Positions 38,578 to 41,892 of a DNA stretch of 64,000 nt are shown piece by piece. This DNA comes from Paludibacteraceae bacterium. Its GTDB lineage: Bacteria; Bacteroidota; Bacteroidia; Bacteroidales; Paludibacteraceae. Made by a program: the position numbers and the translations under genes. The number at the start of each line of letters is the position of its first letter. Positions within the stretch are counted from its first letter, which is position 1. The notes under the pieces were generated by a model. That model did not search any database, was not told the DNA's origin, and worked only from the letters and a program-made list of their open reading frames with translations. The DNA lies in contig JAKSKX010000005.1 of NCBI GenBank assembly GCA_024401535.1, forward strand, positions 1 through 64,000, written 5' to 3'.

Positions 38578-38625
38578 TTAAAAAATGTCTTTGCAGTTGA
38601 GAAGCATGTTTCTCATCTTTAGCAT
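38578..38625 (-). CDS. Candidate metK leader peptide, methionine-rich
   Basis: A 15-codon [18 protein letters not shown], with three Met codons in its first seven positions and one Cys. It lies about 43 nt into the predicted transcript, upstream of the attenuator-like hairpin. Codons 4-9 also form a small hairpin (GAGAA/UUCUC). The composition and position are those expected of a leader peptide that senses charged tRNA-Met. Translation is not shown, and the ribosome site is weak, as is common in this phylum. Confidence 0.45.
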
Positions 38626-38674
38626 TTTTTATTGTGGTTGCAATCGCACAAATCCGTCCACGGTGTTTTCGACT

Positions 38675-38682: not shown

Positions 38683-38976
38683 ACAACTTATTTTTTAATG
38701 CAAAGAATTTTTGAAGAAATTTGTTGGCCATAATTTGTGTTCCAGTTTTTGATGTTCTTTTTATACAGTCAAATTGCAAAAATGAAATTTCAGTTTGCCT
38801 TTCTTTTAGTCTGGAATAAGTCCAATGATTCTAATTTTGGTTTTTCTCTTCTGTGAGTCTTTTGGTTTAATTTGTAAGAAAAAACGTTAGCAACGAATAC
38901 TATTTTTATAGCCAACAAGTTTAAATTCATAAAAAAAGCAATTGTTGTCTAGTTTTGGGCTTTGGAACGTGTAGTT

Positions 38977-38992
38977 TGGCACGCTTTTTGCA
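38977..38992 (+). promoter_or_regulatory. Sigma-54 (RpoN) promoter
   Basis: TGGCACG-CTTT-TTGCA fits the sigma-54 consensus TGGCACG-N4-TTGCW without mismatch, with GG (38978-38979) and GC (38990-38991) separated by exactly 10 bp. An imperfect CAACAA...TTGTTG inverted repeat lies about 30-60 bp upstream, where an activator could bind. The start is expected near 39003. Confidence 0.85.
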
Positions 38993-39002
38993 TTGTAGTT
39001 AG

Positions 39003-39141
39003 TAGAGGTTTAAGCCAATTTGAGAAAACTGACTTGCCTTTTGTAGTTTAGTCCTAATATTAAATCCTTTCGCTGCGGGAAACCGTGGCAGTAAAAAGAG
39101 CGATAAGCATCTCGGTGTTGATTGTTCTTTTTATTTTTTTT
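39003..39141 (+). ncRNA. Candidate sigma-54-dependent small RNA
   Basis: From the predicted start, the transcript runs about 139 nt without a worthwhile ORF. It includes a CTGC-GG-GAAA-CC-GTG-GCAG hairpin at about 39073-39091. It ends in a 14-position stem (39098-39111 with 39114-39127, one mismatch, several G-U), followed by TTTTTATTTTTTTT. The next gene (39273) has its own sigma-A-type promoter at 39239-39246, so the unit is not simply its leader. I do not recognise a named RNA family. Confidence 0.65.
39098..39141 (+). terminator. Terminator of the sigma-54-driven RNA
   Basis: GAGCGATAAGCATC pairs with GGTGTTGATTGTTC over 13 of 14 positions, counting G-U; the innermost pairs open to form the loop. 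A T5-A-T8 tract follows. Confidence 0.8.
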
Positions 39142-39238
39142 GTTGACTATACTGTATATTTATATACATTATATGTTATAAAATCGACAATAAATTTAAA
39201 AAATGATGATTTTGTTTGCTATGTATTGGATTTTACTC

Positions 39239-39246
39239 TATATTTG
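39239..39246 (+). promoter_or_regulatory. -33/-7 promoter for the gene at 39273
   Basis: TATATTTG with TTTG about 20 bp upstream (39215-39218), 26 bp before the ATG. Confidence 0.7.
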
Positions 39247-39272
39247 CAAAATGGTTAACTATTTGACGGGTA

Positions 39273-40595
39273 ATGAGCAATAAATTACAGAACATATTTC
39301 TTACTTCTTTGGCTGTTTTGCCCATTGGAGTGATGGCTGTAGAGGATGGCAGCAGAGACTTCCCTTTTGTTGTGTCCTCTGTGAATGATTTGATTGCTCT
39401 GCAGAAAGCAGTTAACGGAGGAGTGTCTTATCACAAGGCTGAGTTGACTGAAGGTGCCGAAGGTGCATACTTTATATTGACTCAGGATATTGATTTGACA
39501 AAGAATGACCAGCTTCGCAAGCATGGTTGGACACCAATTGGTACTGAGGCAGTCCCTTTCAAGGGAAAATTCGACGGTAAGGGTAACAAGATCATTTTCG
39601 ACAGCAAAAAGAACAAAACTCCTTTTGTCTTGTTCGGTAATGCAGATAATGCCGAGATCAAGAATGTACTGTTGGACACAAAGAACAGCGAGGCGTTGGG
39701 AATAAACAATATCTGCCAGAATGAAGGAACTTCCGTAATATGTAGTTGCGCAGTGACAGATACAATGCCTTCTACTTGGTCGCAGTTCGCTCATTCAACA
39801 TATTCGCATTACGGTGTCAGCCAAGTAAAGGCGCGCGGTTATGAGAATGGCTCTTATGAGCACCCTTTTGTGATTGCTGATGAGATGGACTTCCTTCAGC
39901 TGAGCAAGGCAATTCGAGGTGGATCTCCGTACCATAATTCTGAAATGGAACTTGGCGGAAAGAACAGCCATTTCGTGCTTGGTGCAGATATCGATATGAA
40001 AAAACTTGTCAGCCGTGGCTATACAAGTTGGATTCCAATCGGAGCTCCAGACATGCCTTTCAAAGGACATTTCTCTGGAAACGGTCATAAAATCATAAAT
40101 CTTTCTATCATAACTCCTGATCAAAGTTATTTGGGCTTGTTTGGATATACAGATGGAGCGGTGATTGAAAACGTAGAGCTATATTCTGCAAGGATTGAAG
40201 CTAATTACGATGCAGGTTTCATAATCGGCTATGCGGCAAATTCTGAAGTAAGGAATTGTGTTGTTCAGGGCGAAATGAACGGTCACCGCTGGTTAGGTTC
40301 TATTTGCGGAGAGACCTATAACACACTTGTAGGAACTTGCGAGGTTGATTGTGACATCAAGGCCGGAAAGAATTCCTACTCAATAGGTGGAGTTGTGGGT
40401 GAAGCGATTAATCAGACTACAGTCTATCAGTGCATGGTTCAAGGTTCTGTGGCCGGTGCTGTTTCTGTGGGTGATATCTGCGGAACTTTGGAGGATAGCA
40501 ACATCTACTTGTGCTCTAAGAACAAGGTTGCAACATCCTCTCAGGAAGTGGAGCTTGTTGATTTGAACAAGAAATTGTTCCAGGTTAGCAAGTAA
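39273..40595 (+). CDS. Secreted GLUG-like protein with an internal duplication
   Basis: 440 residues with a signal peptide (about 1-22, ending GVMAVE). Two related modules are visible, at about 25-115 and 188-280. Each runs DFPF/HPFV...LIALQKAVNGG...YFILTQDIDL...WTPIG...PFKGKFDGKGNKI, and in the second module the same order is kept. This is the layout of secreted proteins with GLUG motifs and right-handed beta-helix tails. The C-terminal 150 residues continue as short hydrophobic repeats (SYLGLFGYTDGAVIENVEL and similar). The family is linked to adhesion or surface display, with function unproven. Single gene with its own promoter. Confidence 0.78.
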   Translation: MSNKLQNIFLTSLAVLPIGVMAVEDGSRDFPFVVSSVNDLIALQKAVNGGVSYHKAELTEGAEGAYFILTQDIDLTKNDQLRKHGWTPIGTEAVPFKGKFDGKGNKIIFDSKKNKTPFVLFGNADNAEIKNVLLDTKNSEALGINNICQNEGTSVICSCAVTDTMPSTWSQFAHSTYSHYGVSQVKARGYENGSYEHPFVIADEMDFLQLSKAIRGGSPYHNSEMELGGKNSHFVLGADIDMKKLVSRGYTSWIPIGAPDMPFKGHFSGNGHKIINLSIITPDQSYLGLFGYTDGAVIENVELYSARIEANYDAGFIIGYAANSEVRNCVVQGEMNGHRWLGSICGETYNTLVGTCEVDCDIKAGKNSYSIGGVVGEAINQTTVYQCMVQGSVAGAVSVGDICGTLEDSNIYLCSKNKVATSSQEVELVDLNKKLFQVSK

Positions 40596-41556: not shown

Positions 41557-41892
41557 AAAAAGGCTTTTGTGGATTTACAAGAGGGGGATTTCTTGCGGAA
41601 AAGTCCTTTTGCACATCTACAAAACGTGTTTTCTAGTTGGAAAAGTCCTTTTGTACATCTACAAAACGGGTTTTCTTGTTGGAAAAGTCCTTTTGCACAT
41701 CTACAAAACGGGTTTTCTTGTTGGAAAAAGCCTTTTGTACATCTACAAATCGAGTTTTCTCGTTGGAAAAGTCCTCTTGCACATCTACAAATCGAGTTTT
41801 CTTGTTGGAAAAGTCCTTTTGTACATCTACAAATCGGGTTTTCTAGTTGGAAAAGTCCTCTTGCACATCTACAAATCGTGTTTTCCTTGCGT
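41557..41892 (+). repeat. 42-bp tandem repeat array, about eight copies
   Basis: Units begin at 41599, 41641, 41683, 41725, 41767, 41809 and 41851, with a degenerate unit before the first (41557-41598). The consensus is aaaagtccttttgtacatc followed by tacaaaacgggttttcttgttgg. In the first copies an inverted repeat TTTTGTN6ACAAAA is kept; later copies carry CTCTTG...CAAATCG instead. Since 42 is a multiple of three, all three forward frames stay open, which produces spurious ORFs. There are no unique spacers, so this is not a CRISPR array. Confidence 0.93.

Follow-up and report, generated by a model that had tools for sequence, protein, structure and literature searches.

A family of small RNA genes with putative sigma-54 promoters in Paludibacteraceae

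Described systems and the present family

The Qrr small RNAs (sRNAs) of Vibrio have a conserved core and a terminator and work with Hfq. They are sigma-54-dependent and occur in five paralogous copies in V. harveyi, according to PMC2680268. The Pxr RNAs of Myxococcus and Cystobacter are described as having an apparently sigma-54 promoter and three stem-loops, with tandem paralogues in Cystobacter (PMC5568312). Within Bacteroidota, the accessible text on Flavobacterium psychrophilum lists a putative regulatory RNA, Rfp36, behind the sigma-54 motif SM4, and gives the sigma-54 regulon as one of protein quality control, envelope stress, gliding, and exported proteins (PMC9723704). In Bacteroides thetaiotaomicron, the FopS and GibS RNAs are paralogous multi-copy sRNAs that have a terminator and a seed that is conserved and unpaired; FopS has sigma-ABfr promoters and 14 copies, binds the RRM protein RbpB, and was deposited in Rfam (PMC11697453). 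A 2025 regulon survey that covers Bacteroidota contains, in its available portion, no mention of sRNA, small RNA, or non-coding.

The window analyzed here is the whole stretch of 64,000 nucleotides on contig 45 of the 2.96-Mb genome of a Paludibacteraceae bacterium. The locus studied in it is, very probably, a small regulatory RNA gene that exists in several similar copies, every one of them with a sigma-54 promoter of its own. This sRNA family, of which we found no description in the open-licence literature, is known so far from one family of gut Bacteroidales. The only other multi-copy sRNAs under sigma-54 that we know of are Qrr of Vibrio and Pxr of some myxobacteria.

The family resembles Qrr in its association with sigma-54, its several paralogous copies, its conserved core, and its terminator. 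It differs in belonging to another phylum, in that Hfq, the partner of Qrr, has no match in the genome that carries the window (91.5% complete), and in that no counterpart of the luxR target has been shown. A Qrr model is presumably contained in Rfam, and the Rfam scans gave no Qrr match at the gathering threshold or at E values up to 1. No Rfam family reaches its gathering threshold for the window RNA; four matches below threshold lie on the 3′ hairpins, the best with E = 0.0045 and 25.8 bits, versus a gathering threshold of 55.8. With Pxr the family shares the apparent sigma-54 promoter, the stem-loops, and the tandem paralogues, but Pxr belongs to another phylum and acts in development, a comparison made by description only. 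Rfp36, compared in the same way, sets a precedent in the phylum for an sRNA behind a sigma-54 motif, although its report, as far as accessible, presents a single RNA rather than a family. As multi-copy paralogous sRNAs of Bacteroidales with a seed and a terminator, FopS and GibS are the nearest such precedent in that order. The present units differ from them in having sigma-54 boxes and one to five copies per genome, and in lacking an RRM_1 match in the genome of the window and any Rfam match (the FopS entry in that release being unconfirmed).

Promoter, RNA, and flanks of the window copy

The sequence-only reading of the window had proposed an RpoN promoter with GG-N10-GC spacing, and the letters are exactly as it described them. 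TGGCACGCTTTTTGCA occupies positions 38977–38992, with GG at 38978–38979, GC at 38990–38991, and 10 bases between, and this is the sole zero-mismatch match to TGGCACN5TTGC in the window. With up to two mismatches the same pattern matches 59 times, versus 50.6 expected; hence, the exact match alone is unusual. The longer TTGGCACN4TTTGCA occurs once (38976–38992), versus 0.02 expected per window, and at least once in 2 of 100 shuffles. The predicted −24/−12 promoter on the forward strand, TTGGCACGCTTTTTGCA (38976–38992), is based on this exact match and on the recurrence of the box in all copies found without it (see following). Transcription from sigma-54 promoters starts 12 nt after the −12 C, which places the predicted start at 39003 on the same strand. 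In 27 units, the first base of the best local 5′ stem falls within −2 to +13 of the predicted start. The pair of motifs for which an activator-binding role had been suggested is indeed present (CAACAA at 38913–38918 and TTGTTG at 38942–38947), but such a role finds no support in the 12 units compared, where the 60 bases analyzed upstream of the box hold no conserved element and where neither these bases nor the spacer contain invariant runs.

The predicted RNA, on the forward strand, is 139 nt long when counted from the predicted start through the last base of the T tract. A 5′ hairpin can be drawn at 39012–39035 as a local stem with two mismatches and a GAGA loop (39022–39025); it is weak in this copy and absent from its minimum free energy (MFE) structure. 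It is followed by a 32-nt core (39039–39070), over which 31–32 nt are identical in 15 copies from eight genomes of the same genus, and whose positions 39040–39057 (TTTGTAGTTTAGTCCTAA) are close to the part common to five genera in a profile of 12 units. The MFE structure then has a second hairpin with a GAAA loop (39072–39089) and, starting about 90 nt past the predicted start, an intrinsic terminator hairpin (39090–39141), the latter also indicated by covariation. The earlier claim of a strong hairpin with a T5-A-T8 tract (39128–39141) stands, whereas the 13 pairs attributed to it compare with 20 counted in the MFE stem (39090–39135), including A-U pairs with the U tract and interrupted by one 1×1 internal loop. 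A simple terminator scan does not list this hairpin, and its single hit (38968–38983) overlaps the promoter box. The transcript has a stability z-score of −2.69, with 2 of 200 shuffles equally stable. In agreement with the reported absence of an open reading frame (ORF) in this interval, the window copy has no internal ORF of at least 12 aa, and none is common to the 27 units. A 57-aa GTG frame (39085–39258) crosses the terminator. An encoded peptide was considered and rejected, as the frame through the core is startless or broken in many units.

Upstream of the window copy lies a divergent metK-like gene (named by eye), itself preceded by a SAM-II riboswitch aptamer on the reverse strand (38609–38667, 56.7 bits versus a gathering threshold of 44). 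Downstream, the 440-aa ORF at 39273–40595 has no Pfam match at E = 0.001. As had been noticed, it has its own promoter, which is of the primary-sigma type (39215–39246, forward strand), with TTTG at 39215–39218 and TATATTTG at 39239–39246 ahead of the ATG at 39273; the TAnnTTTG-type consensus used is the one quoted in PMC7366714. Farther on, the window contains a 42-bp tandem array (41585–41885) of 7.2 copies with 89% matches, open in several frames.

Distribution and conserved structure of the family

A BLAST search with positions 38930–39145 against 41 genomes gives matches in nine, all of one genus. The genome of the window has five units and its eight genus mates have 15 (two in each of seven and one in G008), where the BLAST matches cover just the 31–32 nt of the core, at 100% identity. 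All 20 copies have a TGG...TTG box with sigma-54 spacing 52–70 nt upstream of the core. The GC of the −12 element is kept in the five copies of the window's genome, and the 15 genus-mate copies have GT or GA instead; TGGCGC is found in two of the 20, both in genus mates, and TTGAT in two. One of the five (G000:C6:24940–25124, L020/L080) has diverged: its core contains an insertion and its 3′ part is longer.

A covariance model built on the transcript alone was run over 358 Paludibacteraceae genomes (E ≤ 0.01). Of its 37 matches, 20 are the units already known and six are new, five of them in genus g46 and one in g5 (G322, E = 0.0065); each of the other 11 was read and rejected, box and core both being absent. 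All six new units have the box. Together with the 15 genus-mate copies, found by their core, these make 21 copies identified independently of the promoter, and 21 of 21 have correctly spaced GG and TTG, mostly with GT or GA for GC. Sigma-54 control of these RNAs is thus supported by sequence comparison. For the window RNA itself, we infer both transcription and dependence on RpoN.

A search with a promoter-plus-core pattern gave 43 matches, eight of which were rejected by eye for missing context. This brings the family to at least 35 units, spread over 24 of the 358 genomes and five of 33 genera (g1, 9/9 genomes; g46, 7/16; g5, 3/6; g4, 4/4; g6, 1/2), a count that proves nothing by itself because the backwards control of the pattern also matched scattered places. 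The box was part of the query for the units of g4 and g6, for two of three in g5, and for two of seven in g46. These searches show no unit in the other 334 genomes, most of which have rpoN. The rpoN profile matches 337 of the 358 genomes, and 23 of the 24 unit-bearing genomes are among the matches listed (G011 is not); hence, the presence of rpoN does not discriminate the genomes with units. A similar pattern run over 84,980 genomes, one per species, matches 28 stretches, of which 26 are real units and two lack the context, on contigs labelled Paludibacteraceae, Bacteroidales, or Candidatus Scybalocola fimicaballi. In a sample of 393 genomes of the order, including six Paludibacteraceae, the genome of the window is its sole match. 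Outside Paludibacteraceae no unit was recognized in the species scan, the order genomes, or Rfam, searches that diverged cores would escape. A phage origin was also considered and dismissed, there being no blastn match among 50,697 phage records; in viral_contigs, five stretches matched, and the two distinct sequences shown lack the core context.

The neighborhoods of the copies differ. In the genome of the window there is a tandem pair between a 731-aa ORF and a mnmG-like gene, and the other copies precede dprA-like and dapF-like genes or lie at metK. In the genus mates the copies precede an MFS gene or have an MmcQ-like gene nearby, and in g4 they lie between ABC-transporter and M13-peptidase-like genes (all names by eye). 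Such unrelated neighbors argue for action in trans. Where flanking genes are retained, the boxes are retained too, as the sequence-only reading would have it: they are kept with the MmcQ-like and 457-aa genes in three loci (L086, L087, and L093) and before the MFS gene in seven (L085, L098, L099, and L106–L109). In three g5 genomes (L060, L061, and L062/L245), a second sigma-54-like box (TGGCAYTGTTTTTGCC) is found just behind the sRNA terminator. It precedes a 127-aa secreted-looking protein in G012, and similar proteins are found behind the units of G321 and G322.

The units typically comprise, in order, the −24/−12 box, a 5′ hairpin often closed by a GNGA loop, the core UUUGUAGUUUAGUYCUAA, in most cases a second hairpin, and the terminator. 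Beyond the pattern used for anchoring, 12 locus representatives share a T before TGG and the A and C within the −24 box; around the core anchor, they share TT two bases before TAGTTTAGT and CTA behind it. Of 27 units, 20 have a GNGA loop on their best local 5′ stem and two more show it in the MFE, while five type-A copies shift register; a hairpin with this loop is within the MFE in 17 of 24 units, the window copy not included. The core is mostly free of strong stems, with a small hairpin using part of it predicted in many units, more involvement in pairing in the MFE folds of g5, and an alternative pairing of its 5′ half favored by RNAalifold. The second hairpin is found in g1, g4, g5, and g6 with differing sequences and is not evident in g46.

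The expectation that relatives would carry the same promoter-hairpin unit, with covarying stems, is borne out, chiefly for the terminator. In an alignment of 15 sequences, two helices have 85.0% paired cells (73.2% when shuffled), 30 cells with changes on both sides (11.6 when shuffled), and a covariation score of 0.414, versus 0.223 ± 0.026 in shuffled and at most 0.250 in slid alignments; these shuffles leave the relatedness of the sequences in place. Nearly all of the two-sided changes are in the terminator, where they affect 10 of 11 pairs, as compared with one of six in the second hairpin. The window copy pairs at nine of the 11 terminator positions. At the second hairpin it pairs at one of six alignment positions, its own hairpin being in another register, so that covariation there supports the other 14 copies and not this one.

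Mode of action and sigma-54 output

By the evidence of sequence, the units form a real sRNA gene family under sigma-54. We think it probable that this is a free-standing, multi-copy family, Qrr-like in action without being Qrr, whose core pairs with mRNAs in trans. The genome of the window codes for an RpoN with its AID, CBD, and DBD all present and for two full-length Sigma54_activat (enhancer-binding) proteins: one (L151:4767–6011) with a receiver, an AAA+ domain, and no recognized DNA-binding domain, the other with HTH_8 and no receiver. Four more weak partial Sigma54_activat matches are probably other AAA+ proteins. The RpoN holoenzyme would recognize the −24/−12 box and, as sigma-54 promoters are opened by an enhancer-binding ATPase, one of the two found here would open it. 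The terminator would release the RNA, the hairpins may protect its ends and display the core, and the core would pair in trans with mRNAs, probably near their translation starts. With several copies under one sigma factor, the response could be fast and scale with dosage, as it does for Qrr.

No conserved pairing target was found in the nine genomes of the genus. With up to three mismatches, the totals for TTAGGACTAAACTACAAA are not above the backwards control in any of them. At zero or one mismatch it matches the sRNA loci alone, and at two mismatches one sRNA copy and the leader of an M23-peptidase-like gene (G003:C23), the latter a match that the other genomes lack. TTATCACTAAACTGCAAA, three mismatches from the core complement, is present in seven of the nine genomes and not in that of the window (e.g., G002:C23:67058–67075). 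Among the places inspected for CTAAACTACN{0,30}ATG, the leaders of the M23-like gene and, in G001, of a methylase-like gene account for two, each in one genome; a site that recurs is behind a terminator, and the remainder look coding or unclear.

The 1.03 Mb covered of the 2.96-Mb genome provided 741 translation starts, at which duplex energies were computed with 12 shuffled cores as controls. There is no excess of duplexes at or below −18 kcal/mol (nine, versus 2–15 for shuffled cores), and the best, at −23.3 kcal/mol, is bettered in two of the 12 controls; in a smaller set of 179 starts, none of 20 shuffled cores had a better best. One candidate is a leader (L157:590–650) whose gene lies two genes before rpoN and encodes a secreted-looking protein of 148 aa. 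In this leader each half of the core has an exact complement, AAAGGATTTAA and AGGACTAAAC, ending 17 nt before the ATG. For two exact complementary blocks of length 10 in one leader, the real value of 1 is reached by one of 300 shuffled cores; at length 9 the real value is reached by 26, at length 8 (real value 2) by 85, and at length 7 (real value 5) by 292. As its energy is not beyond chance (two of the 12 shuffled cores do better) and one of the four block lengths tried stands out, the L157 candidate is only suggestive. In seven relatives a different gene is found before rpoN, and in G008 the contig ends there. With the leader of the receiver-type activator (L151:4735–4767) the core forms the sixth-best of the 741 duplexes, a rank that is not significant.

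The same anatomy could belong to a sigma-54 RNA that binds a protein, as a decoy like CsrB or CrcZ, instead of pairing with mRNAs. This would fit the near invariance of the core across genera, the lack of pairing excess at the 741 starts, and the lack of Hfq and RRM_1 matches; yet known decoy RNAs have repeated protein-binding motifs, whereas each RNA here has one core, mainly outside strong stems in many folds, and we regard a decoy as unlikely. That the units are cis-acting leaders or attenuators appears very unlikely: in most loci compared the unit and the ORF behind it share a strand, but the downstream genes are unrelated (by eye: mnmG, dprA, dapF, MFS, and M13 peptidase), the terminator is strong, and the next gene in the window carries its own promoter.

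Two further alternatives concern the promoter. A real sRNA family might be transcribed by the primary or another sigma factor, given the TTTG inside the box. The element that the units share is, however, TTGGCA-N6-TTG, and no TAnnTTTG is common between box and RNA, which makes this another improbable reading. Still less probable is a dispersed repeat of the MITE or REP type with a chance likeness to a promoter. Such an element would be expected to occur several times per genome in different places, as the units do, two of them in tandem; against it stand the low copy number, the compensated changes in the terminator stem, the box in every copy found without it, and the fact that no shared terminal repeats are seen by eye in the units.

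The pairing family remains the reading that we prefer, and it points to RNA as one of the routes by which sigma-54 acts in these bacteria. A bolder version, which we put forward as speculative, is that the main direct output of sigma-54 here is a redundant, relocatable sRNA family, convergent with Qrr and free of Hfq and RRM_1, that feeds back on sigma-54; the feedback is drawn from the candidate sites in two leaders, that of the 148-aa gene and that of the sigma-54 activator. A third, apparently unrelated case, in a genome without detectable Hfq, would point to a recurrent combination of enhancer-gated promoters and redundant sRNAs.

Exact TTGGCAYN4TTTGC sites number nine in the genome of the window: five at the sRNAs, two ahead of lipoprotein-like genes, and two inside ORFs. 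The targets of sigma-54 in Bacteroidales are little mapped, and the five exact boxes at one RNA family, with the two at lipoprotein-like genes, offer a direct handle on them. The latter two boxes (genome sites C9:34593 and C12:249567) lie directly before genes of 144 and 165 aa, at L159:6568–6583 (reverse strand) and L154:14593–14608 (forward strand). These two boxes, and the analogy with the sigma-54 regulon of F. psychrophilum, suggest that the inducing signal would most likely be envelope or protein-quality stress. At another locus of this genome (L158:6100–6680, reverse strand; G000:C1:268599), a TTGGCACGTTTTTTGT box stands ahead of a short ORF, about 50 aa long, whose product looks exported.
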